Part shown: piece after piece, positions 7,635 to 24,670 of the stretch
How the letters are laid out: every line of letters begins with the position of its first letter
Position numbering within the stretch: the first letter of the stretch is position 1
NCBI GenBank assembly: GCA_016202645.1
Contig: JACQOF010000064.1
Span: 1 to 33,785, forward strand
DNA length: 33,785 nucleotides
DNA from: a bacterium
Lineage (GTDB): Bacteria; Lindowbacteria; 2-12-FULL-62-27
Direction of reading: 5' to 3'
Program-made: the position numbers and the translations under genes
The notes under the pieces: generated by a model
Told to the model about the DNA's origin: nothing
Database searches by the model: none
The model's input: the letters and a program-made list of their open reading frames with translations, nothing else

Positions 7635-9484
7635 GGCTCCTCCGTGCGGATGAGCGGGCGAAGATATTCGGGGGACTGGAGCAGTAATTTCTGGTATTGC
7701 GCGTCAGACCGGGACGCGGGCGGGAGGGACTCCCAGCGCAGATAGTGCAGAAACGGCGATCCGGCCGCGCGAATATCCCCCGCGGCGACCTCTGGCCGGC
7801 CCGACCGGAGCGCCTCGGTCCAGAGGACGATCTGCGCCGCCACCGGAAAATTTTCGGCGCCGTCGGACGGGCGCGGCGGCACGCCGCCCCGGCTTGCATT
7901 TCGGATTGACTGGCCAATCCGGTCCGGCAGGTCCCGGTCGGGCCGCGCCATGGCGATCAGCCAGGCGAGGGACTCGTCGGCGAGAAAAGTTTCGGACCGG
8001 GAGACAACGTCCCGCAGAGCCGTGCGCGCGGTAGCGGTGTCGCCTTCGATGTAGGAAAGCCAGCCCAGCCAGTAGAGGCTGAGATCGGACGGCGAGGCCG
8101 CATGTGCGCGGTGCGCGGCCCGGAGAGCCTCCGATTCGGCGCCGTCCAGGAACAAAAGTTGGGCAAGCCGAAGGTCGTCCGCCGGCGTGGGGGAAATGTC
8201 GCGGGCCGTCCGAAGTTCCGCGACGGCGGCGGCGATCCGGTCCTCCCGGAAATACGCCTCGGACGAAAGCCGGTGCGCCGACGCGCGGACGGCCGGGTTC
8301 GAAAATATTTTCGGCGGGTACTTGGCGAGGGCCTGTTCCGGCCCGGCGGTCTGAAGGGCATGCCGGAAGAGCATGAGTTTTTTGGACTCGGCGGTGATGG
8401 GCGGGGTGTCGGGCACCTCGGCGAGGACCTGGAGAAACGCCGGGAGACGCTCGTGGATGAGCAACTGTTCCGCCAGGAGCAGATGCGCCTGCGCGTTTTG
8501 AAATTTTCGGACATAAGTCCGGGCGAATCCCAGGCAGTCCGCGTCGGAGGTGATCTCGGCGAACCGGAAGAGCGCCGATTCGTAGAGGTACGGGTTCTTC
8601 CCCTCCGAAATCAATTCGGGATAAGTTCTGGTGAGAAAAACCGTGTCGGTGATCATGGCCAGAAAATCCCTGAAATATTCCGGCGCCGGCGCCGGCCCGG
8701 GCAGAAGTACCGGCAGATACAGCTCGATGCCCTCACGGCCCAATTGCAGGCCCTGGCAAATGGAAAGAGACTGGTCGAAAAAGAGGCCCGGATTCGAAAA
8801 GGTCGTCCGCGCGCGCCGGTGAATGTCCAGAGCGCCGCGGTAATCTCCGTGTCGGTAAAACCGTTCCGCCAGGTCCGCGTAGGCGCCCGGATCGGCGCCG
8901 TGTTCGCGCAGGATTTCATTGGCGAACGAGACCGCCTCGGCGCGGCGGCCGAGATCCAGCAGGAGGTCCACCATCATCACGCGGTGATCAAGGCGGCCGC
9001 TTAACTGGGCCAGACGCGCGGCGAATTCGAGCGCGGGGCCATGCCGGCCGAGATTCCTCAGGAGTTCAATCTGGGTTTCAAGCACCTCGGCGGGCCAGGC
9101 CCGGCCGGGATCCAGGCCGGCGAGCGCCTGAAGTCTTCCCTCGCCCGAAAGGGGCGGATATCTCATGAGAAGCGCAAGAAGCGTCGAGATCGACGTGGGG
9201 GATTTGGAGGCGTTCATCGCGTGCGGGAACAGAACAAACGCGGCCGGCGTGTCGGACGGCGACGTGAAACGCTCAGCGAATATTTTCATCGCCTCCACCC
9301 TGAGCCATTCCTCCACACCCGCGGCCTCCACCACCTCCCGGACGCGCTTCAGCGCCGCCGCCGTGTCCTGCGCCCGCAAAAACCGGTCGGCCTCCCGGAG
9401 GTTGGCCTGGGCGTCGACGGCATGGGCGTGCGGAGCGGCGATGAGAATCAACGCGGCAAGTGCGAGTGGTGTGTATAGGCTCAT
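7631..9484 (-). CDS. Exported TPR-repeat protein
   Basis: 617 residues with a signal peptide (MSLYTPLALAALILIAAPHAHA, cleavage predicted after Ala22). The rest is helical and built from degenerate TPR-like repeats, for example READRFLRAQDTAAALKRVRE near 30-50, YADLAERFYRHGDYRGALDIH near 200-220 and RLAQLLFLDGAESEALRAAH further on. No catalytic motif is visible. The start ATG and the stop of the DUF4175-like gene overlap (ATGA), and its own stop overlaps the start of the next gene, so the three are translated together. A periplasmic scaffold working with the flanking membrane and exported proteins is the likely role by context. Confidence 0.85.
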   Translation of the reverse strand: MSLYTPLALAALILIAAPHAHAVDAQANLREADRFLRAQDTAAALKRVREVVEAAGVEEWLRVEAMKIFAERFTSPSDTPAAFVLFPHAMNASKSPTSISTLLALLMRYPPLSGEGRLQALAGLDPGRAWPAEVLETQIELLRNLGRHGPALEFAARLAQLSGRLDHRVMMVDLLLDLGRRAEAVSFANEILREHGADPGAYADLAERFYRHGDYRGALDIHRRARTTFSNPGLFFDQSLSICQGLQLGREGIELYLPVLLPGPAPAPEYFRDFLAMITDTVFLTRTYPELISEGKNPYLYESALFRFAEITSDADCLGFARTYVRKFQNAQAHLLLAEQLLIHERLPAFLQVLAEVPDTPPITAESKKLMLFRHALQTAGPEQALAKYPPKIFSNPAVRASAHRLSSEAYFREDRIAAAVAELRTARDISPTPADDLRLAQLLFLDGAESEALRAAHRAHAASPSDLSLYWLGWLSYIEGDTATARTALRDVVSRSETFLADESLAWLIAMARPDRDLPDRIGQSIRNASRGGVPPRPSDGAENFPVAAQIVLWTEALRSGRPEVAAGDIRAAGSPFLHYLRWESLPPASRSDAQYQKLLLQSPEYLRPLIRTEEP

Positions 9485-12400
9485 TGCAGGGTTTCCCCGA
9501 AAAGCGATCTCAGATATTTTTTCCCGGCCTCGCGGTATTCGGGCGGAAGGGACCGGAGATATTGTTCTTCGTTGACCGGCGGCCGGTCCAGCCGGAGCGT
9601 GGACGTGTCGGCGGCCTTGCCGAAAAACGGCTCCGCCTCGAAACGCTCCTCCTTCTCGTCCTTGTCCGTCAGAGACTGCTGCAGTTCCATCAGCTTGTTG
9701 AGGACTTTCTGCTGGCGCTCCTGCACGGCCTGGTTCGGCCCCATTCGGCGGAGGTCCTCCTCGATCTTGCGCATCTCCTGCATGACCTGGTCGATCCGGC
9801 CGAGTTTTTCCTGAAGATCCGAAAACCGGCCGGCCTCGGCCTCCATGCTCCGGCGGATGAGTTCCTGCTGGAAGGCGAGCTGTTCGAGGTTGTCGCCAAA
9901 GAGATTCATCTGCATCGACATTTGCGTTTTCGAATTGAGGCTCGACTGGGCCGAAATCATCTGCTGAAGAAGTTCCGCCAGGTCCTGCATCGGCTGGCCC
10001 CGGCCCTTGCCTTTGGATTCCTTCTGAAGTTTTTGGGCCGAGTCAAGCAGGAGGAGGCCCGCGTGAGCGGCGAAGCGATAGGCGATCCCGAGTTGGGCCG
10101 CGAGAAATGCCGGCTCCTCGTCGCGGTCCGGAATGGCTTTGAGGGCGAGGACCGCCCGGCGAAGCATCTGCACGGGGCGCGGATCAAAGAGGATGAGCCG
10201 TTCAGCCACCGCCGAGACTTCGGCGATGCTGTGTGCGAGGACAGGCTCAAAGGCGGCGGACTTGCGCAGGTGCCGGGAATATTCGGCCGGGTCCCGCTGG
10301 GCGCGGGCGGATTGAAAATATTCGTGGGAGGCCTGCATGCGGCCGAGCGAGAAAACAATCCCGTCGACGAGGGAATTCAATTTCTCCGCGGCGTTTTCCT
10401 TTTCGGCCTTCTCTGACTTCTCCGCGCCCTTCTCCAGCGCCGACTGGATCGCGGCGAGGGAATCTTTCAGTTTTTGTTCCGCCGCCTCCTTCTCCTGCGG
10501 CGTCCCGCCGCCCTTCATGGTCTGGGCGGTCTTGTCGAACTGCCGGGCCAGATCGGACGCGCCCTGAGACAGGGCCTTCTTCAATTCGGCGAAGGCGGGA
10601 TTCCGCGCGAGGTCCTCGAGTTTGGGCATGAGCGCCGCCGCCTCTTTTCCGAGGGCCTCCATCTGCTGGGCGTTCTTGGAGGACATCGCCTGGTCCGCGC
10701 GGGCGGCCAGGTCCTGCACGGCCTTCATCGCCTCCGACTGCGCCATGATGTCGCTGACCCGTTCCAGCATCCGGTGTGAGCGGTCGACCTGGTCGACGAA
10801 CTGCTCGAGATTGAACTTGGCCGACATCATCGACCGTTCCTTTTCCTCGATCCGAACCGACCCGAGGGCGCGTTCAAGTTCGCGCTGGGCGCGGACGTAA
10901 TCGTCCTTCATGAGCCGCGTCATCATCTGGCCGATCGCGGAAAGTTTGTCGAGGGTCTCCCGGGAGAGCAATTTCTGGCCGGCGGCTGACTCGGCGCGCT
11001 TGCCAAGTTCCGCCAGTGCCCGCTCCGCGTCCTTCTTGGCGCGCTCCGTTTCCTCCGCCATCGCCACCAGCTCCTGCTCCATCTGCCAGGCCATCCGGCC
11101 CTCCGCCTTCATGGTCCGGGCAGCCGATGTCATTTTTTTCAGAAGCCGTTTGCTCTCCCCGCTCAGGCGTTCCATCATCCGGCTGATGTCCGCGCCCTGC
11201 TCGGTGAGCCGCCGGTACACGTCCATGGCCGTCGGCGCGCGGATCCGAAGCGCCGCGCTCCGGCCCGCCTTCGGGCCCGCGAGCGCGTCGTTGTCGAGGA
11301 CCTCCGCTCGCACGTCGATCTCCGAACCGGCGTAGGACAGGTGCGGCGTGATGTCCAGGAGATACGCAATCTCCTGACGGGCCTTCGGCAGAAAGGGAAT
11401 CGGAATCTCCTTGTTCAGGGAACCTTCCGGCGTTCCGATGAGAACGCGGGCGGCGGAAATTCCGAAGTCATCCTCGGTCAGCCAACGAAGCGGCAGGAGG
11501 CCTTCAGCCGGCGCCTCCATTTCCGTCCGGGTGGGAGACAGCCAGGTGACGGTCGGCGCGCGGTCGGCCAGCGTGTCGACGTCGAAGCCCGCGGGAGCGG
11601 CCGGCAGGCTGTCCGCGGAAATCGCGCGGATTTCCAGGCGCGCGGGGGCGAGAAACGTCGCGGAAACCTGGATCTCCCGGTCCCGCAGGTTTGTCTTGAG
11701 GGATCGCGCCGCGGAGCGGGCGCCCACCGAGGCAGAGGCCGATGCGATCGGCAGATCCGATTCGAGCCGGATGTCCAGATCACTGCCCGGATAGAGGGCG
11801 AATCCGTTTCCGAGAGATTTTATTTTTTCAGGCGGAAGGCCCGTGTAGGCGGGCGGCGTGACAACCGCCGACACGAACCCCAGCGTAGGCGGGCGGACGA
11901 CCCGGAGGAGAACTTCCGGCGAGACAATCTGAACGCCGCCCGGCGCGAGGGCCGCCGCGGTCAGTTTCAAGTCCGCGCTGACGCCCCGGATGAAACTCTC
12001 GTATATCCCGTCGGTGGAACTCTCCAGGAGAATCTCCGACGGCGCCTCCTCCTCCCGGGCGGACGCGAGTTTCACCCGGAGTCGGTGCATCGCCATCCGG
12101 CCTTCGGCCAGAACCCGCACCCGGGCGTCCGCACCCGCCAGAACCGGCCGCTCCGGGACCTTGACCCTCAGCATCAGCGGCATCGACAAACTTCCGCGGT
12201 CGGCCGGCGGAAAGAGGAGCGCCCCGATGAGCGCGAAGCAGACCGTTCCCGCGAAAAACCGGAAGGCAAAGGCGAACCCCGGGAAAGAAAGGAACTGGGT
12301 CGGCCGGGACAGGCGGTCGGTGGTCTCTTGCAGGAGCATCCGCCAAGTCGGCGAGTCTGGGTGGCCGGATTTTTGCGTGAGCTCGAAGACCGTCGTGAAC

Positions 12401-12657
12401 CGGAAATTGGAATCTGGCCGAAGGATTTCCAGGCGAGCCATGGCGGTTTTCCTCAACGGGAAATCTCTGGCGAGGAAGATCAGAAAACTGACGGCGGAAA
12501 TCAAGTGGACCGGGCCCCAGCCGAGCTGGGCGCGGACGGTGACGGCCAGAAGACACCAGATCGCCGCGGATTTGAGAAGATGCGCGGCGAGGTGGATCGC
12601 CTGGAGAATCCGAAGATTTCGGTTGAGTTTCGAAATCACCGACGCGGAAACGGTCAA
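9481..12657 (-). CDS. DUF4175-like membrane-anchored coiled-coil protein
   Basis: 1058 residues. Three hydrophobic segments lie near the N-terminus (about 22-42, 48-64 and 128-149). Residues about 160-480 form beta-rich, Ig-like extracytoplasmic segments, with the motif TPPAYTGLPP at 267-276 that I associate with DUF4175-type proteins. From about 490 to 1030 the chain is a long, charged, Ala/Glu/Lys/Gln-rich coiled coil (for example EQELVAMAEETERAKKDAER and METLGKEAAALMPKLE-like stretches). The start is taken as TTG 12657, which overlaps the stop of the upstream CAP-domain gene; GGGAGG lies immediately before it, and a GTG at 12639 is the alternative. Function is unknown; its neighbours suggest an envelope complex. 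Confidence 0.75.
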   Translation of the reverse strand: MTVSASVISKLNRNLRILQAIHLAAHLLKSAAIWCLLAVTVRAQLGWGPVHLISAVSFLIFLARDFPLRKTAMARLEILRPDSNFRFTTVFELTQKSGHPDSPTWRMLLQETTDRLSRPTQFLSFPGFAFAFRFFAGTVCFALIGALLFPPADRGSLSMPLMLRVKVPERPVLAGADARVRVLAEGRMAMHRLRVKLASAREEEAPSEILLESSTDGIYESFIRGVSADLKLTAAALAPGGVQIVSPEVLLRVVRPPTLGFVSAVVTPPAYTGLPPEKIKSLGNGFALYPGSDLDIRLESDLPIASASASVGARSAARSLKTNLRDREIQVSATFLAPARLEIRAISADSLPAAPAGFDVDTLADRAPTVTWLSPTRTEMEAPAEGLLPLRWLTEDDFGISAARVLIGTPEGSLNKEIPIPFLPKARQEIAYLLDITPHLSYAGSEIDVRAEVLDNDALAGPKAGRSAALRIRAPTAMDVYRRLTEQGADISRMMERLSGESKRLLKKMTSAARTMKAEGRMAWQMEQELVAMAEETERAKKDAERALAELGKRAESAAGQKLLSRETLDKLSAIGQMMTRLMKDDYVRAQRELERALGSVRIEEKERSMMSAKFNLEQFVDQVDRSHRMLERVSDIMAQSEAMKAVQDLAARADQAMSSKNAQQMEALGKEAAALMPKLEDLARNPAFAELKKALSQGASDLARQFDKTAQTMKGGGTPQEKEAAEQKLKDSLAAIQSALEKGAEKSEKAEKENAAEKLNSLVDGIVFSLGRMQASHEYFQSARAQRDPAEYSRHLRKSAAFEPVLAHSIAEVSAVAERLILFDPRPVQMLRRAVLALKAIPDRDEEPAFLAAQLGIAYRFAAHAGLLLLDSAQKLQKESKGKGRGQPMQDLAELLQQMISAQSSLNSKTQMSMQMNLFGDNLEQLAFQQELIRRSMEAEAGRFSDLQEKLGRIDQVMQEMRKIEEDLRRMGPNQAVQERQQKVLNKLMELQQSLTDKDEKEERFEAEPFFGKAADTSTLRLDRPPVNEEQYLRSLPPEYREAGKKYLRSLFGETLQ

Positions 12658-15048: not shown

Positions 15049-16194
15049 GTGGCGCAAAGCGGGGCCCGGATCGGCATCGATCAGAAGGTGCTGGATTTTA
15101 TTCACCACGCCGCGGAGGCGGATCCCGGCGAGGAAGCCTTCACCAAGCTCGCGCTCGACCTCTTCGCCTACCAGTACGAGCGTAATCCCGCATACCGTAT
15201 GTTCTGCATGAAGGACAGGGGAGCCGGACCCTCGACGCCAGACCGGATCCGTTCCTGGAAGGATATTCCGGCGGTCCCCGTTGGAGCGTTCCGGGCCGCG
15301 CCCTTCTGCGGATTCGCGCCGGACCGTGCAGTCCAGGTTTTTGAAACGTCCGGCACTACCGGCCGGGCGCCCGGCAGGCATTATTTCGATACCCTTGATC
15401 TCTACGACGAATCCGCTCTTCCGAATTTCAGCCGGTATCTTCTTCCCGACGACGCGCACCTGCCCATGCGGATGCTGATGCCGGCCCCCGCGGAAAATCC
15501 CAAGTCCAGTCTCTCCTACATGTGCCGCATCGTTGCGGAAGCGTTTGGCGAGGACGCCGAGTGGTTCGTCCGGGACGGCAAGATGGACGTTTCCGGAATT
15601 CTCGCGGATCTGGATCGTGCCGCGAAGGAAGACCGGCCGCGGATGATTCTGGGAACGGCGTTTGCTTTCGTGCACCTCATCGATGTGATGGCGGAAAAAG
15701 GCCTCCAGGTCCGACTGCCGGCGGGAAGCCGGATCATGGAGACCGGCGGATACAAAGGCCGCTCGCGGGAAATGACGGCCGATCAGCTCCACGCCCACAT
15801 CGAAACATTTCTCGGCGTGCCGCGCGCTTGGATTGTCAACGAGTACGGCATGACGGAACTTTCGTCGCAGATGTACGACGATACCCTCCGCCACGCTGTC
15901 CAATCGACCGCGGCACCCGCGGCCGACTCCGAGCGCCTCGTCCTGAAAATCCCGCCGCCGTGGGTGAAAATCCAGATCGCCGATCCCGTAAGCCTCGAAC
16001 CGGCCCCATACGGAACGCCGGGCATCGTCCGAATCTGGGACCTGGCCAACCGGGGTTCGGCCGTCGCGGTGCAGACCGGAGACCTCGGCATCGCCGCCGC
16101 GGCCGGATTTCAGGTCCTGGGCCGGAACGCGGGCGCGGACATGCGGGGCTGTTCACTGCAGGCGGAAGATATGACCTCCCCGTCCATTCCATAA
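15049..16194 (+). CDS. luxE: LuxE-type acyl-protein synthetase
   Basis: 381 residues, close to luminous-bacterial LuxE. LuxE adenylates a carboxylic (fatty) acid and passes the acyl group to its own cysteine and then to LuxC. Visible features: AMP-binding loop FETSGTTGRAPG at 98-109, NEYGMTELSSQMYD at 264-277, ETGGYKGRSREM at 231-242, and near the C-terminus GRNAGADMRGCSL with Cys368, matching the position of the acyl-accepting cysteine of LuxE. GTG 15049 follows the upstream stop by six bases, with GAGG overlapping that stop. No luxA, luxB or luxD is present, so light production is not indicated; the pair with LuxC is the common non-luminous type. Confidence 0.88.
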   Translation: MAQSGARIGIDQKVLDFIHHAAEADPGEEAFTKLALDLFAYQYERNPAYRMFCMKDRGAGPSTPDRIRSWKDIPAVPVGAFRAAPFCGFAPDRAVQVFETSGTTGRAPGRHYFDTLDLYDESALPNFSRYLLPDDAHLPMRMLMPAPAENPKSSLSYMCRIVAEAFGEDAEWFVRDGKMDVSGILADLDRAAKEDRPRMILGTAFAFVHLIDVMAEKGLQVRLPAGSRIMETGGYKGRSREMTADQLHAHIETFLGVPRAWIVNEYGMTELSSQMYDDTLRHAVQSTAAPAADSERLVLKIPPPWVKIQIADPVSLEPAPYGTPGIVRIWDLANRGSAVAVQTGDLGIAAAAGFQVLGRNAGADMRGCSLQAEDMTSPSIP

Positions 16195-16244
16195 TCATCG
16201 AACCGTTCGGCAAGCATTTAAAACAGGTTCCGGTTCGGCGGATC

Positions 16245-17402
16245 ATGGCCGCGCTGGAATCCGCCGCGAAAATCTTTTTGGACCGGTCTAGCCCGCAGCG
16301 CGCGGATACCATCGACGCGATGGCCGCCGAGAACAATTTTTCGCGGCCGATGATCGAGCGCGCGATCGACTGGACGTTTGGGGAAATCACCGTGAACGCC
16401 ATGCGGCGGCTTTTGATTTCGGAACTGGACGGCGACGACACGCCGAGCGATCCGGCGTTTGGGTCGCCGCGTCTCACGGCCGTCATCGCCGCCGGAGCGA
16501 TTTTTCAGCCGGCCGTCAATTGCGTTGTCCATGCGCTCCTCGTCAAATCCCCGGTCTTTGTCAAATGCTCAAGCCACGACCGCGTGTTGCTCCCCGCGTT
16601 CCTCAAAGTCCTGGCGCGGATCGATCCCGAAGTCGGCGGAGCCGCTCGCGCGGAATCATGGCCGGGCGCGACAGATCCGCGGACGGCGGAACTTCTCTCC
16701 GCGGCCGGCGCGGTGATCGCCTTCGGGACCGATGAGACCATCGCGGCCATCCGGCCGGTGGTGCCGGAAGGAACACCGCTGATCGCGCAGGGCCACAAGA
16801 TCAGTCTGGCGTGCGTCGGCGCGGGCGCGCTCAAAAATCGGGAAACAGCGGCAGCCGCGGCCGCAGCCCTGGCGTTGGACACCGCGATGTACGACCAGAC
16901 CGGGTGTCTTTCCCCGCACGCCGTGTACGTCGAATCGGGAGCGCCCGTCGACGCCGATGGATTCTCGGTACTCCTGGCGCATGAACTCGGACAAATCGCG
17001 AAGACACTCCCGCCCGGACCCATCGCAAACCAAACGGCCGCCGACGTTCAGGCGTATCGCGGAAACGCGGACTTCCGATCCTGCTCGAATCCCAACGTCC
17101 GGTGCCTTTTCGGTGACCGCCTGGACTATACAGTCATTCTGGATGACGAACCGGTGATGCACTTGTCGCCGCTCGGCCGGACCATCGCCGTCCATCCGAT
17201 CGGTGACATCCGTCGTCTGCCGGAACATCTGGCGCCTTTTCACGGCAAACTGCAGGCCGTCGGTGCGGCGCCGGACGAGCCCATCCTTCACGCCATCCAT
17301 GCCGACCTTCAGAATATGGGCGCAAGTTACTTCTGCCCCCTCGGCCGGATGCAGCGCCCGCCCCTCAACTGGAAAAACACAAAACTTTTCCTCAGAGGTT
17401 GA
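16245..17402 (+). CDS. luxC: LuxC-type acyl-CoA/acyl-enzyme reductase
   Basis: 385 residues from ATG 16245. LuxC reduces an activated acyl group with NADPH to the aldehyde. Family blocks include VIAAGAIFQPAVNCVVHALL (80-99), KSPVFVKCSSHD (101-112), AGAVIAFGTDETI (154-166), QGHKISLACVG (182-192) and the catalytic Cys221 in YDQTGCLSPHAVYVE. The start is uncertain: the same frame reads IIIEPFGKHLKQVPVRRI directly before this ATG and looks coding back to the end of luxE, but there is no ATG, GTG or TTG there, only ATA 16191, the ATCs at 16194 and 16197, or CTG 16149. The protein works with LuxE as the fatty acid reductase core. Confidence 0.88.
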   Translation: MAALESAAKIFLDRSSPQRADTIDAMAAENNFSRPMIERAIDWTFGEITVNAMRRLLISELDGDDTPSDPAFGSPRLTAVIAAGAIFQPAVNCVVHALLVKSPVFVKCSSHDRVLLPAFLKVLARIDPEVGGAARAESWPGATDPRTAELLSAAGAVIAFGTDETIAAIRPVVPEGTPLIAQGHKISLACVGAGALKNRETAAAAAAALALDTAMYDQTGCLSPHAVYVESGAPVDADGFSVLLAHELGQIAKTLPPGPIANQTAADVQAYRGNADFRSCSNPNVRCLFGDRLDYTVILDDEPVMHLSPLGRTIAVHPIGDIRRLPEHLAPFHGKLQAVGAAPDEPILHAIHADLQNMGASYFCPLGRMQRPPLNWKNTKLFLRG

Positions 17403-18608: not shown

Positions 18609-18638
18609 TCATCGAGGGAATGGGAGAAGGTGGTTGTC

Positions 18639-19217
18639 ATGGACGCTTGGTGGGGATCCTTGTCGAGCGAACTTCGGATTTTTTATTCCATCGCCATTGT
18701 TTCCAGCGCGGTTCTTCTCATTCAGTTGCTCCTTCTCCTGATCGGACTTGACCACAGCCTCGATGCCGGCGACATGGACATGGGCGGGCCCGGCGAACAT
18801 CCCGGCGGACTGCACATTCTCTCTGTCCGGTCGGTCGTCGCGTTTTTCGTCGGATTCGGCTGGACCGGCGTCGTCGCCCTCAACCGCGGCCTCTCCACTC
18901 TATCCAGCGTTTTCCTCGCGGGCGCCGTCGGCGCGGCATTTCTTCTGACCGTCTACTATATGATGAAAAGTCTTCACGGCCTGCGTTCCAGCGGCACCCT
19001 CGACTACAAGAACGCCGTCGGCCAGATCGCCACGGTCTATCTACCCATCCCGGCCGAGCGGGGCGGGCCGGGCCAGATCGAAGTCATGATCCAGGGGCGG
19101 GTCATGGTCGTCCAGGCTTTTACGAAGTCATCCAAGCCGATCGGCAACCGCGCCAAAGTCCGCGTCGTCGAACAACTGGACGCCGGAACTCTTCTCGTCG
19201 AACCGATTGCCGACTGA
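18639..19217 (+). CDS. YqiJ/NfeD-like membrane protein with OB-fold tail
   Basis: 192 residues from ATG 18639, chosen because GGGAGAAGG ends eight bases upstream; GTG 18630, three codons earlier, overlaps that site. Three membrane segments (about 14-37, 63-80, 87-108) are separated by an acidic Gly/Met-rich loop (GDMDMGGPGEHPGG). Residues 120-192 form the small beta barrel typical of NfeD-type proteins (TLDYKNAVGQIATVYLPIPA, QIEVMIQGRVMVVQAFTK, KVRVVEQLDAGTLLVEPI). Such proteins are encoded next to flotillins and bind them (YqiJ-YqiK in E. coli). The flotillin gene follows 30 bases later. Confidence 0.85.
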   Translation: MDAWWGSLSSELRIFYSIAIVSSAVLLIQLLLLLIGLDHSLDAGDMDMGGPGEHPGGLHILSVRSVVAFFVGFGWTGVVALNRGLSTLSSVFLAGAVGAAFLLTVYYMMKSLHGLRSSGTLDYKNAVGQIATVYLPIPAERGGPGQIEVMIQGRVMVVQAFTKSSKPIGNRAKVRVVEQLDAGTLLVEPIAD

Positions 19218-19247: not shown

Positions 19248-20984
19248 ATGGACATCCTGTTTCTCATCGGCGGCGGCGTCTTCGTCGTCTTCGTCACCAT
19301 CGTCTCTTTCGCGGCCCGCTACAAGCGATGCCCCTCCGACAAAATCCTCGTCGTTTACGGCAAAATCGGCGGAAGCGGCGGCGCCGGTGCCGGAGGCCTC
19401 CACGCCCGATGTTACCACGGCGGCGCCGCTTTCGTGTGGCCCATCATCCAGGATTATCAGTACCTCGACCTCACGCCCATCCCCATCGACATCAAACTCG
19501 AGGGCGCCCTCTCCCTGCAGAACATCCGCGTGAACACGCCGTCGACCTTCACGGTCGGCATTTCCACCGAGCCCGGCATCATGGAAAACGCCGCGGAACG
19601 TATGCTCGGCCTGGACCTCAAGACCATCCAGGAACTCGCGAAGGACATTATTTTCGGCCAGATGCGCGTCGTCATCGCGACGATGTCCATCGAGTCCATC
19701 AACTCCGACCGCGACAAGCTCATCGAAAACATTTCAAACGGAGTCGAAGTCGAACTCAAAAAGGTCGGTCTTCGGCTCATCAACGTCAACGTCCAGGACA
19801 TCACCGACGAGTCGGGATACATCGAGGCCCTCGGTAAAGAGGCCGCGGCCCGCGCCATCAACGACGCGAAGATCAAGGTCGCCCAGCAGATGCGCGACGG
19901 AGAAATCGGCAAGGCCGAGGCCGAAAAGGAACAGCGGGTCCGGGTCTCCGCGGCGCACGCGACGGCGGTCGAGGGCGAAAACCTCGCGGCGATCACCGTC
20001 GCCCAGTCCAACGCCAACCGCCGCGAGAAGGAAGCCGAAGCCGACCGCCTGGGCACCGCCGCCGAAAAAGTCAAACAGGCCCAGGCCCTCCAGGAATCCT
20101 ACGGCGCCGAGGAAAACGCCGAGCGCCAGCGCGCCAAGCGCGAGGAGGCGACGCAGGTCGCGAACGTCATCGTCCCCGCCGAAATCGACAAGCGGCGGAT
20201 CGAGATCATGGCCGAAGCCCAGGCCGAGCAGACCCGCCGCACCAAGAAAGGCGAGGCCGACGGGATCCGGTCGGTCATGGAGGGCGAAGCCGAAGGCACC
20301 ATGGCGATCCTGACGCGCAAGGCCACCGGTCTCCGGGAAATCGTGCAGTCCGCCGGCGGAAGCCCGGAACTCGCGGGCCTTCTCATGGTGATCGAACAGC
20401 TTCCACAGCTTGTTGCCGAGCAGGTCAAGGCCATTTCGAATTTGAAGATCGATTCAGTGACCGTCTGGGAAGGCGGCCGGAAGGGCGACGGCAAAACCAA
20501 CACCGCCGATTTCGTCTCCGGGCTTGTCGGGTCCCTTCCGCCCCTCCACGAACTCACCAAAAACGTCGGCGTGCGGCTCCCGGAATATCTCGGGAAGATG
20601 ATGTCCGATCCGGACAAGATGGCGGACGTCGGCGAGGCCCTGAAATCCGAAGCCTCCAAGCGCCGCCGCGCCGGGGACCGGGTCCGGCAGTGGCTTTCGC
20701 TGAACCTCGAGCTTCTGACGTCCTTCGACAAAAACAAAAACGCGCGTATCGACGCGGACGAACTCGACGCCGCGGTCTCCGCCGTCCTCGATTGGGCCGG
20801 CCGCGCCATGGACGGCCGCGGGAAATGGTTTTTTTCGAAAGACGACCAGACCCAGGGCCCGCATGACTGGGCAAAAATCGAATCCCTCGGCGCCAAACAT
20901 CCCAAAGCCTTCGTCAATCTGGAAGGCTCTGAATTCTGGATTCCCTACGAGGCCATCGCGCTCGCCATAAAATCTTTGCGGTAA
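19248..20984 (+). CDS. Flotillin-family SPFH protein with EF-hand loop and GYF_2-like tail
   Basis: 578 residues, start ATG 19248 with a strong GGAGGTAA site. An N-terminal membrane anchor (about 3-22) is followed by a SPFH/Band 7 domain (about 28-200: VVYGKIGG, FVWPIIQDYQYLDLTPIPID, VNVQDITDESGYIEALGKEA). A long Ala/Glu-rich flotillin coiled coil spans 200-350, then LLMVIEQLPQLVAEQVKAI (378-396). Unusually, the chain continues about 170 residues past the standard core. Residues 494-505 read DKNKNARIDADE, a canonical EF-hand loop (D1, N3, N5, I8, D9, E12). Residues 526-568 (KWFFSKDDQTQGPHDWAKIE and onward, ending FWIPYEAI) look like a GYF_2-type module. Flotillins scaffold ordered membrane domains; calcium or peptide binding by the tail is inferred. 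Confidence 0.92.
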   Translation: MDILFLIGGGVFVVFVTIVSFAARYKRCPSDKILVVYGKIGGSGGAGAGGLHARCYHGGAAFVWPIIQDYQYLDLTPIPIDIKLEGALSLQNIRVNTPSTFTVGISTEPGIMENAAERMLGLDLKTIQELAKDIIFGQMRVVIATMSIESINSDRDKLIENISNGVEVELKKVGLRLINVNVQDITDESGYIEALGKEAAARAINDAKIKVAQQMRDGEIGKAEAEKEQRVRVSAAHATAVEGENLAAITVAQSNANRREKEAEADRLGTAAEKVKQAQALQESYGAEENAERQRAKREEATQVANVIVPAEIDKRRIEIMAEAQAEQTRRTKKGEADGIRSVMEGEAEGTMAILTRKATGLREIVQSAGGSPELAGLLMVIEQLPQLVAEQVKAISNLKIDSVTVWEGGRKGDGKTNTADFVSGLVGSLPPLHELTKNVGVRLPEYLGKMMSDPDKMADVGEALKSEASKRRRAGDRVRQWLSLNLELLTSFDKNKNARIDADELDAAVSAVLDWAGRAMDGRGKWFFSKDDQTQGPHDWAKIESLGAKHPKAFVNLEGSEFWIPYEAIALAIKSLR

Positions 20985-21112
20985 AATTCTCAACCCACGC
21001 TGTTTTGTTTTCGGAATAAGTTTGATACCCTGCCCTTCATGAAACGTGAAGCTTGGGGCCGCCCTTGGCGGTGATCGACATCGATCCGCGCGGGCGGGTA
21101 CCGGAAGACCTC

Positions 21113-22048
21113 ATGAAACTCCTGCCCGGAATCATCCTCGTCATTCTCGTCCTCATCCTTGGCGGGACCATGGCCTACACCGTCGACACCGAGGAAATCG
21201 CGGTCGTCACCCGGTTCGGGCGGATCGTCCGCGAGGAACCGCCCGGCCTCCATTTCAAATTTCCCATGGGCATCGAACAGGCCTACAAAGTCAAAACCCA
21301 ACGGGTCCTCAAGGAGGAGTTCGGGTTTCGCACGGCCCAGGCCGGAGTCCGCACCCAGTATTCCGGCCGTGGATACCTGGAAGAATCCCTCATGCTGACC
21401 GGCGATCTGAACGTCGCCGTCGTCGAGTGGATTGTCCAGTACCGCGTGGACGACCCCAAGGCTTATCTCTTCCGTCTGCGGGACCCGGAACGAACTTTGC
21501 GGGACGTCAGCGAAGCGATGATGCGTCTGGTCGTTGGAGACCACAGCGTCGACGAGGTTCTGACCATCGGCCGCGAGGAAATCGAGCGCGACGTGCAGGA
21601 ACGCCTGGACGAACGCCTGCGGCACTACGGCGCCGGCATCCGGATCGTGACCGTCAAACTCCAGAACGTCACGCCCCCGGAGGAAGTCCGGCCGTCTTTT
21701 GACGAAGTCAACAAGGCCAAGCAGGACATGGAGCGGATGGTGAACGAAGCCTGGCAGGCGTACAACGAACGGGTGCCGAAGGCGGAGGGCGAAAAAGAAA
21801 AAGCGGTATCGGAGGCGATGGGCTACGAGTCCGAACGCCTGAACCTCGCCAAGGGCGACGCTAACCGCTTCAACGCCATTCTCGCGGAGTACCGGAAGGC
21901 CCCCGAAGTCACCCGCACGCGGATGTACCTGGAAGCGATGGGGGACATTTACGGGAAAGCCAAAGACAAATACATCATCGACGAAAACGCCCGTTCGATC
22001 CTGCCGCTTCTTCAGCTCGGGACGGATAAATCGGGAGAGAAAAAATGA
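21113..22048 (+). CDS. hflK: HflK-like SPFH membrane protein
   Basis: 311 residues from ATG 21113 (GGAAG eight bases upstream; an in-frame TTG at 21053 is less likely). One N-terminal membrane segment (LLPGIILVILVLILGGTMAY) precedes a Band 7 domain: VVTRFGRIVREEPPGLHFKF, VEWIVQYRVDDPKAYLFRLR, ALMRLVVGDHSVDEVL-like block, GIRIVTVKLQNVTPPEEVRPSFDEV, and a coiled coil with EGEKEKAVSEAMGYESERLN. In E. coli HflK and HflC form a periplasm-facing cage around the FtsH protease. It lacks the Gly-rich cytoplasmic N-terminal extension of E. coli HflK. It overlaps hflC by four bases (ATGA). Confidence 0.92.
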   Translation: MKLLPGIILVILVLILGGTMAYTVDTEEIAVVTRFGRIVREEPPGLHFKFPMGIEQAYKVKTQRVLKEEFGFRTAQAGVRTQYSGRGYLEESLMLTGDLNVAVVEWIVQYRVDDPKAYLFRLRDPERTLRDVSEAMMRLVVGDHSVDEVLTIGREEIERDVQERLDERLRHYGAGIRIVTVKLQNVTPPEEVRPSFDEVNKAKQDMERMVNEAWQAYNERVPKAEGEKEKAVSEAMGYESERLNLAKGDANRFNAILAEYRKAPEVTRTRMYLEAMGDIYGKAKDKYIIDENARSILPLLQLGTDKSGEKK

Positions 22049-22971
22049 GAAACACCGGATCCTTCGGCCTCGTTCTCGTTCTGCTGGTTTTCCTCGCGCT
22101 CTTTTCAGCCGCCTTTGTTGTGACCGAAGGCCAGACCGTGATCGTAACCCAGTTCGGACAATTCGTCCGGACGGCTTCGACCGCCGGGCTTTACTGGAAA
22201 ATCCCCTTTGTTCAGACCGTGCGCTATTTCGACCGGAGAATTCTGGAATGGGACGGCGAGGCCAATCAGATGCCGACCAAGGACAAAAAATTTATCTGGG
22301 TCGACGCCACCGCCCGGTGGCGGATCACCGATCCTCTCATTTTCTATCAGCGCCTCAAAAACGAGGTGTATGCCCAGTCCCGGCTTGACGACATCCTCGA
22401 CAACGCCACCCGCGACATCGTCACAGGCATGGTCCAGTTCGAAACCGTCCGCATGTCCAACCGGCCGATGCAGTTTCTCGACGAGGCGATTCTGCCCGAA
22501 GAGGCCCGCCAGCCCATCAAGCTCGGGCGGAATCAGATCACCCGCCTGATTTTGGAGCGGGCCCGGGAAGGCGTCAAGGATTTCGGGATCGAGATCGTTG
22601 ATCTGCAGATCAAGCGCATCAACTACAACCAGGACGTCCAGGCCTCCGTCTACCAGCGCATGATCTCCGAACGCACCCGGATCGCCAAACGAACGCGGTC
22701 GGAAGGCGAAGGCGAACGCCAGAAAATCCTCGGGAAAATGGAACAGGAACTGAAACGCATCTCCTCGGAAGGATACCGCCAGGCCATCGAAATCCGCGGA
22801 CGCGCCGACGCGCTCGCCACCAAAATCTACGCCGAAAGCTACAGCCAGGACCCGCCCTTCTACGAATTCCTCCGCTCCCTCGAAACCTACCGCCGCACCA
22901 TGGACGACAAAACCACCCTCATCCTCACCACCGACAACAAGTATCTGAAGTATCTCAAGGGAAAAAACTAG
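22045..22971 (+). CDS. hflC: HflC-like SPFH membrane protein
   Basis: 308 residues with an N-terminal membrane segment (LVLVLLVFLALFSAAFVV), then the Band 7 domain with the HflC-type run GQTVIVTQFGQFVRTASTAG, GLYWKIPFVQTVRYFDRRIL, KDKKFIWVDATARWRITDPL and FGIEIVDLQIKRINYNQDVQ. The C-terminal half has the RTRSEGEGERQKILGK coiled coil, RGRADALATKIYAESYSQDP and YRRTMDDKTTLILTTDNKYL, as in HflC. Partner of the upstream HflK in modulating FtsH. Its ATG overlaps the hflK stop, so the two are made in equal amounts. A hairpin just past its stop could end the operon. Confidence 0.95.
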   Translation: MRNTGSFGLVLVLLVFLALFSAAFVVTEGQTVIVTQFGQFVRTASTAGLYWKIPFVQTVRYFDRRILEWDGEANQMPTKDKKFIWVDATARWRITDPLIFYQRLKNEVYAQSRLDDILDNATRDIVTGMVQFETVRMSNRPMQFLDEAILPEEARQPIKLGRNQITRLILERAREGVKDFGIEIVDLQIKRINYNQDVQASVYQRMISERTRIAKRTRSEGEGERQKILGKMEQELKRISSEGYRQAIEIRGRADALATKIYAESYSQDPPFYEFLRSLETYRRTMDDKTTLILTTDNKYLKYLKGKN

Positions 22972-22972
22972 C

Positions 22973-23008
22973 TCGGCCTTAAGCCTTCGCTCCGGCTCTC
23001 ACGGCCGA
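22973..23008. terminator. Hairpin between convergent hflC and the LMF gene
   Basis: TCGGCC and GGCCGA pair around an inner AGCC/GGCT stem between two converging genes, with only 27 bases of true intergenic space. The right arm enters the last codons of the minus-strand gene. No long T-run follows on either strand, so it would be a weak or factor-assisted bidirectional terminator. Confidence 0.4.
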
Positions 23009-24558
23009 ACCGTCGTCCGTTGCGGCACGGCCGTCGGGCGGCCCTCTTTTCCGAGGTTCGGATCGACGTAGAGCGTTCCGACCTTTTCCCGGTCCCAGTA
23101 ACGCTCCTTTGACTCCGGCGCGCCGCGGCGGGTCATGCGATAATGGTAAAACGTGATCCGCACGTCCGCGGGTTTCGTTCCGTTCAGCGGATCATTCACG
23201 AAATGGCGGAGCGCCAGGTTCGGTTCCTCCAAAAGCTGGACCGCGAGCTTTCCGACGTAGGACGGCAGAGCCTGCGGGGCCGCGGACGCGTCCGGATACG
23301 GCATCGCGGCGTTTCCCCAGCGGAGCGGATATCTCTCGAACCACAGCCGGAAATCGACGCGGGGATGGTGCGGCGCGACAAACGGCGGCGGACGGTCGAG
23401 GGCGCCTGCTTTGTAGGGAAATTCGTACTCGTACCACGTTTGAAAATCCGGGCTGGCCTCGAAAACCATCTCGTACCGGATCGGATCGATCGGGCCGAAC
23501 AGATGGTACCGGCTCGATATATGGGTCGCATGGATGTAGCGGCCCCACTGACCGACCCGCGTGGTGTGGATCGCCTGACCCCCGGCCAGCATCAGGAACT
23601 CGATGAGCGAAAAAACGACAATGACGAGCGAGAGAGGATAGACCCACCAGCGCGGGCGGAGGGGCTCAGCGGAGATGTCGGCGAAGCGCGCTCGCAGGGA
23701 AGGGACCAGCCGGCAAACGCCCGCGATATCGGCGTCGGTCAGCAGGAAAAGATGAAGGGCCAGCGAGGTATAATTGAAAATGCCGTAGTTGGCCGTCAGG
23801 AGGATCGCGGTTTGAAACGCGGTGAAGATCACAAACGCCAGACGGCGGCACGCCAGCCCGGCAAAGATCAGGGTGGATCCGAGAATTTCGATGCAGAGCG
23901 TCGCGCCGGTCTCGAACTGGTGCCAGGATTCCGGCAAAGCATGCGCCACCCACCCCAGGACAGTCGGAATCGGCGCCGTCTCGTAATAGCGGCGCATCGC
24001 ATCCAGAGTCGCCCATGTGTCCGGGCCCCAAAAAAGTTTTGCGAGGCCGGACTCGAGGTAGAGCCGAACCATCAGCCACCGGAAAAGCCATGCCGTCAGG
24101 GGGTCGGCGCCGCGGCGCCAGTTGCAAAAGAACAGACCACTGCACGGCAGGAGAATGGCCAGGAAAGTCGTTTCGAGGATCAGCGAGTCCCACTGGAAAC
24201 TGTAGAGCAGTCCGCCGACTTCGATGTAACTCGCGTACAGCACAAACATCGCCGCAAAACAGACCCGGCTGTAAATACCGATCCCCGCCAGGACCGCAAG
24301 CGCAACGCCCAGCCACGCGCCTCCGACAAGAACCGCGTCGCTCGAAAACCACAGAAACAGACTTGGACATTCAACGATCCGGTCCAGCATCGACAGGCCC
24401 GTGTCGTCCCATAAACGGCGGACATATTCCGCCGCCGGCAGCAGCCCATCCGATCCCATACACCGTTGGACTTGCTCAGCCAGCGATGCGAAATTGAAAA
24501 GATGAAGAATCCCAAGGGCCGGGATGAATATCCGGGTGATGTACCGCCGATCGTTCAT
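22999..24558 (-). CDS. Lipase maturation factor (LMF1/LMF2) family membrane protein
   Basis: 519 residues from ATG 24558; the frame extends 20 codons further upstream, but those lie in a dyad repeat. A multi-spanning membrane region covers about residues 8-330. Family marks include GLLYSFQWDSLILETTFLAI, RWLMVRLYLESGLAKLFWGP, WATLDAMRRYYETAPIPTVL and WHQFETGATLCIEI. The soluble C-terminal half has WYEYEFPYKAGALDRPPPFV, HHPRVDFRLWFERY and ITFYHYRMTRRG with a terminal RYWDREKVG. Vertebrate LMF1 is needed for lipase folding in the endoplasmic reticulum; bacterial members have no established job, though some heme- or vitamin-K-carboxylase-like relatives share the fold. No lipase gene is adjacent. 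Confidence 0.85.
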   Translation of the reverse strand: MNDRRYITRIFIPALGILHLFNFASLAEQVQRCMGSDGLLPAAEYVRRLWDDTGLSMLDRIVECPSLFLWFSSDAVLVGGAWLGVALAVLAGIGIYSRVCFAAMFVLYASYIEVGGLLYSFQWDSLILETTFLAILLPCSGLFFCNWRRGADPLTAWLFRWLMVRLYLESGLAKLFWGPDTWATLDAMRRYYETAPIPTVLGWVAHALPESWHQFETGATLCIEILGSTLIFAGLACRRLAFVIFTAFQTAILLTANYGIFNYTSLALHLFLLTDADIAGVCRLVPSLRARFADISAEPLRPRWWVYPLSLVIVVFSLIEFLMLAGGQAIHTTRVGQWGRYIHATHISSRYHLFGPIDPIRYEMVFEASPDFQTWYEYEFPYKAGALDRPPPFVAPHHPRVDFRLWFERYPLRWGNAAMPYPDASAAPQALPSYVGKLAVQLLEEPNLALRHFVNDPLNGTKPADVRITFYHYRMTRRGAPESKERYWDREKVGTLYVDPNLGKEGRPTAVPQRTTVRP

Positions 24559-24573
24559 GGGGTCATCAGGGCG

Positions 24574-24670
24574 TTCACGAATGGCACGAATGGTTTCGAA
24601 TGTCACGAATACCACCATAGGGTAAATGTTTTATTCGTGTCATTCGTTTGATTCGTGCCATTCGTGTTAA
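24574..24670. repeat. Iterated-word dyad between the MFS and LMF genes
   Basis: The left arm (24574-24612) reads as repeats of CACGAATG/GCACGAATGG; the right arm (about 24629-24670) is its reverse complement with ATTCGTG words. The arms match at roughly 34 of 40 positions around a loop of about 16 bases. It sits just upstream of the LMF start codon and could form a large stem in its leader or end the MFS transcript. Confidence 0.8.

Follow-up and report, generated by a model that had tools for sequence, protein, structure and literature searches.

A flotillin with a putative partner-binding tail of EF-hand-like and GYF_2-like elements in a bacterium related to Candidatus Lindowbacteria

Our data point toward a flotillin, encoded in an nfeD operon, whose C terminus was probably extended, in a lineage related to Candidatus Lindowbacteria, by a partner-binding tail with a GYF_2-like module for docking and an EF-hand-like element as a hinge or Ca2+ site. 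The gene lies in a stretch of DNA of 33,785 nucleotides, which is called the window in the following.

RESULTS

The flotillin core and its operon

An earlier reading of the DNA, made from the letters and their translations (the sequence-only reading), had described an open reading frame in which a tail follows the usual flotillin core. The Pfam matches to Band_7 and Flot confirm this, and the features of the core and of the gene preceding it are as follows.

18630-19217, + strand: gene of an NfeD-like membrane partner, 195 aa, first of the pair (transmembrane segments and a C-terminal OB-like region are inferred)
19248-20984, + strand: flotillin coding sequence, stop codon included (578 aa; orthologue in a sister genus 77% identical overall)
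19248-19322, + strand: membrane segment at the N terminus, residues 1-25, with RYKR behind it (hydropathy of 1.8-2.7 across 19 residues on the Kyte-Doolittle scale)
19341-19892, + strand: SPFH/Band_7 domain (residues 32-215; Pfam PF01145, E = 1.2e-25)
20220-20510, + strand: flotillin C-terminal coiled-coil/cap region (residues 325-421; Pfam PF15975 Flot, 32.3 bits, cut-off 27)

The Flot match (E = 1.2e-7) lies above its cut-off, and the core ends at about residue 455. The protein is, as judged from its domains, a flotillin but not FloT itself, the score against the FloT equivalog NCBIfam NF058507 being 159.6 bits, whereas >700 bits are required. The PDB chains resembling the full-length protein are flotillins 1 and 2, in each case over the core only; a full-length AlphaFold2 model calculated from two sequences had a mean pLDDT of 40. 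Beyond the N-terminal membrane segment, the remainder of the flotillin would be cytosolic.

The NfeD-like product has no match in Pfam. In other genomes, relatives identified with phmmer immediately precede almost all flotillin genes of the subfamily, and the nfeD-flotillin operon is the standard bacterial arrangement (PMC11222466); the window flotillin belongs to such an ordinary operon. Genes for HflK and HflC follow 3' of the flotillin on the same strand (window 21053-22971), giving three SPFH proteins in a row. They are absent beside the flotillin of the sister-genus genome of Candidatus Lindowbacteria, and therefore, a conserved linkage was ruled out and HflK/HflC are placed outside any conserved unit with the flotillin.

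Three other genes of the window were recorded. An ORF of 1058 aa without a Pfam match at E ≤ 0.001 (9481-12657, - strand) adjoins two genes, whose products are a TPR protein and one with a cyclic-nucleotide-binding domain, and a 626-aa ORF (15522-17402, + strand) has a LuxC-type acyl-CoA reductase domain in its C-terminal part. The product of 22999-24618 (- strand) contains both lipase maturation factor domains, LMF1 and LMF1_C; the lipase maturation factor family is best known from animals.

The tail is common to two genera

Beyond the core, about 120 residues follow: first a helix, then a single EF-hand-like loop and lastly a GYF_2-like module that has diverged.

20616-20981, + strand: lineage-specific tail (residues 457-578), present, among the genomes searched, in the window genome and the sister-genus genome only
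20697-20807, + strand: EF-hand-like helix-loop-helix (residues 484-520), from Pfam EF-hand_1, the AlphaFold2 tail model and a PDB profile match
20727-20762, + strand: 12-residue loop DKNKNARIDADE (residues 494-505), in the orthologue DKNKDAKIDFGE, from the orthologue alignment and a pattern test
20826-20954, + strand: GYF_2-like module (residues 527-569), from Pfam GYF_2, a local HMM and hhalign; beta-beta-alpha-beta-beta in the tail model

The phylum of the window was sampled by three genomes: its own, that of the sister genus (Candidatus Lindowbacteria RIFCSPLOWO2_12_FULL_62_27), whose flotillin orthologue carries the whole tail, and one further genome, in which no flotillin match was found. 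An assembly or frame artefact was ruled out because the sister-genus contig independently shows the same architecture in a single open frame. AlphaFold2 predicted for the tail a helix-loop-helix and then a beta-beta-alpha-beta-beta arrangement (mean pLDDT of 82; from two sequences, with a single confident model out of five). Neither Foldseek nor VIA-align returned a significant match to a GYF domain or an EF-hand for this model as a whole, an absence that is not evidence in itself; the GYF_2 protein at Foldseek rank 5 (the Tic56-bearing 7vcf, chain Q; E = 1.8) lends no support.

The two orthologues are 85% identical in the core and 50% in the tail (63% in the EF part and 45% in the GYF part). 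In the tail, dN is 0.42 and dS 0.98, and in the core, they are 0.10 and 1.15; the resulting dN/dS of ~0.42 versus ~0.09 is rough, dS being near saturation (NG86). The tail has diverged far more rapidly than the core, and it is under purifying selection; the loop ligands, the W/GP/W positions and the hydrophobic pattern are retained in the sister-genus tail. Confinement to one lineage and an identity of one half between genera would suit a functionless read-through extension that drifts. However, dN is well below dS, motif residues have been kept in both orthologues, and two weak, independent domain matches fall at the same places in both, so that this reading is very improbable.

How far the tail extends among flotillins was asked of several data sets. 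Among 386 relatives, the other flotillins align only to about position 440-478 of the 584 model positions, and the loop or the GYF motif occurs in 2 of 56 flotillin-type frames, both of Lindowbacteria type (a few of the frames end at contig ends). The sequence-only reading had pointed to a survey of flotillins for the same tail; the outcome was divided, since the tail is kept in the sister-genus orthologue but lacking in the other flotillins inspected (~50). A search with tail peptides of 84,980 species genomes, which has a limited reach because exact seed peptides were used, returned the sister-genus orthologue as the sole match. The tail was found on no other gene of the phylum's three genomes, nor in 195 genomes of another phylum, a search run without a positive control. 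By these comparisons, it is a lineage-restricted domain addition with two carrier genomes and no general feature of flotillins.

The EF-hand-like element

A canonical calcium loop had been claimed for residues 494-505. A loop is indeed located there, and its ligand residues are kept: positions 1, 3, 5, 9 and 12 are D, N, N/D, D and E in both orthologues, all side-chain ligands thus being in place, and the changes from the window to the orthologue (N5 to D5, R7 to K7) are conservative. "Canonical," however, is overstated: position 6 is Ala, not Gly, in both orthologues, and for this reason PROSITE PS00018 is not matched; moreover, the loop is single, as neither Pfam nor a pattern search revealed a second, paired EF-hand in the flotillin chain.

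EF-hand_1 matched the isolated tails with E = 0.06 (window) and 0.004 (orthologue), at 13.4-17.1 bits and under the curated cut-off of 25.4; on the isolated tail of the window, EF-hand_1 and EF-hand_6 gave E = 0.06-0.07. A profile of the two tails retrieved the EF-hands of troponin C as the best match in the PDB (E = 9e-4), and with PF00036 run over the whole sister-genus genome, the flotillin tail (E = 0.008) was the sole match at E ≤ 0.01. The helix-loop-helix is seen both in the hydrophobic pattern and in the AlphaFold2 tail model, the latter from a shallow alignment. The 12-residue loop pattern alone arises in 1.5% of full-length shuffles. Extended by hydrophobic residues at helix positions -1, -4, -5, +1, +4, +5 and +8, it was found in none of 20,000 shuffles of the 578-aa protein, which rules out an EF loop by chance.

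What the element does may be read in two ways. It could be a helix-loop-helix that works independently of calcium (or filled with Mg2+) and serves just to space or stiffen the connection from the scaffold to the GYF_2-like module; the Ala at position 6, the solitary loop and the fast divergence of the tail argue for this, whereas the preservation of all side-chain ligand positions, with conservative exchanges at positions 5 and 7, exceeds the needs of a purely structural turn. We regard such a structural role as quite conceivable, if short of probable. Alternatively, in line with the coupling of the scaffold to calcium put forward in the sequence-only reading, cytosolic Ca2+ on the loop, possibly paired with that of a neighbouring subunit, could control the access to or the orientation of the GYF_2 module. 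Consistent with a calcium-gated scaffold, ligands 1, 3, 9 and 12 are invariant with N or D at position 5, the flanking hydrophobic pattern is that of an EF-hand, and troponin C sites are the best profile match; furthermore, a high local copy number in the oligomer would favour loop pairing. Against it stand the lack of a partner EF-hand in the chain, the shared Ala that defeats the PROSITE pattern, a score under the Pfam cut-off and the absence of any further EF-hand at E ≤ 0.01 from the sister-genus genome. Support for the coupling to calcium is confined to the ligand-type residues of a single, unpaired loop, and we hold calcium gating to be rather unlikely.

The GYF_2-like module

The WFF...GP...W-type module proposed in the sequence-only reading was recovered at residues 527-569, with the landmark positions W-[YF]...GP...W present in the alignment. 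Pfam GYF_2 (PF14237) matched the full-length protein with E = 0.016 and the isolated tails with 0.0018 (window) and 0.00069 (orthologue), at 15.4-19.8 bits and under the curated cut-off of 25.8. A local GYF_2 HMM built from 30 loci scored 20.0 and 16.6 bits on the two orthologous tails, compared to a maximum of 11.0 in 10,000 shuffles, and hhalign of the tail with GYF_2 gave a probability of 94% (P = 9e-8). The module has diverged: its helix is shorter, and it reads "VNLEGSEFW" where the family has "VWreGmxxW," the tryptophan of VW being replaced. The order of elements, beta-beta-alpha-beta-beta, fits the GYF type in the shallow tail model, which itself found no significant GYF match by Foldseek or VIA-align.

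The profiles named in the sequence-only reading, PF14237 and those for EF-hands, thus match weakly and at corresponding places in both orthologues, but always under the curated cut-offs. Both modules are called "-like" here, as each scores under its Pfam cut-off and the loop departs from the PROSITE pattern. The outcome that would have refuted that reading in its strict form, missing profile matches together with an unconserved tail, was not found.

GYF_2 domains also occur elsewhere in the same genome. On contig C48 (33000-42500), three GYF_2 frames lie within 3.4 kb (36259-36396, + strand; 36999-37145, + strand; 39480-39629, - strand), the first in a protein of 248 aa with an N-terminal GYF_2, a CxxC...CxxC stretch that resembles a zinc ribbon, and membrane-like segments of hydrophobic character.

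DISCUSSION

We favour the reading of the extension as a lineage-specific partner-binding tail that is most likely displayed in many copies on the scaffold. By analogy to solved flotillin structures, the core would assemble into an oligomer, a cage or scaffold attached to the membrane, whose C-termini lie at its narrow cytosolic end, as is the case in the human flotillin structure (PMC11260169), and the tails would be present there in many copies. Every subunit would thus display a short helical stalk, then a single EF-hand-like helix-loop-helix and the diverged GYF_2 module. The latter most likely serves to dock a partner protein to the scaffold, a role presumed also for the C-terminal GYF_2 of Band_7_1 proteins, and the EF-hand-like element between scaffold and adaptor may be a structural hinge or a weak, or dimer-dependent, Ca2+ site. 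Against this reading weigh the Pfam scores under their cut-offs for both modules, the restriction of the tail to two sequences, the replaced VW tryptophan, and structure searches, with a model from two sequences, in which no GYF or EF-hand match stood out. One might go further and picture a calcium-regulated bacterial membrane microdomain, in which Ca2+ switches the recruitment of partners to the GYF_2-like tail by EF-hand loops paired between neighbouring subunits, but we consider this full version decidedly unlikely. If the tail docks a partner, it would offer a concrete way to learn what is recruited by a bacterial flotillin scaffold, a point obscure for most bacteria; should the loop bind Ca2+, it would provide a directly testable link from cytosolic calcium to bacterial membrane microdomains.

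Comparison with known systems

The window flotillin shares its core domains, the N-terminal membrane segment and the upstream nfeD-like gene with the flotillins of bacterial nfeD operons (FloA/FloT/YqiK-type, Band_7 plus Flot). However, other flotillins of the subfamily stop soon after an LPEYLGK-type motif, usually with short charged or low-complexity tails, whereas the window flotillin continues for the ~120 residues with two modules.

EF-hand units have been joined to many other domains in bacteria (PMC7016017). The fusions described in that review are EF-hand pairs, in contrast to the single loop of the flotillin tail; neither SPFH nor flotillin is among the partners named in the passages considered, and the term SPFH appears nowhere in the paper. 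GYF_2-type domains of known structure, from the Adventurous gliding motility protein X (7z3c) and Tic56, are members of the family that the local GYF_2 profile describes; compared to them, the module of the flotillin has diverged, its helix being shorter and the VW tryptophan missing.

The sequence-only reading did not recall a description of this domain set. This holds for the combination of flotillin, EF-hand and GYF_2-like module, for which a literature search found no description, but not for the SPFH domain with a C-terminal GYF_2. That pairing is widespread in the Band_7_1 SPFH proteins (PF13421, YdjI-like), which have a GYF_2 at the extreme C terminus in 14 of 30 loci, as in the window flotillin, and for whose C-terminal GYF_2 we found no description of a ligand. 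They differ from the window flotillin in belonging to another SPFH subfamily, in their size (mostly ~370-410 aa), in lacking an EF-hand-like loop and in having a strong, canonical GYF_2. Since SPFH proteins with a C-terminal GYF_2 are common there, only the flotillin/EF-hand combination is new; as far as sequence comparison can tell, the novelty is a C-terminal GYF_2-like module on a true flotillin together with an EF-hand-like element.
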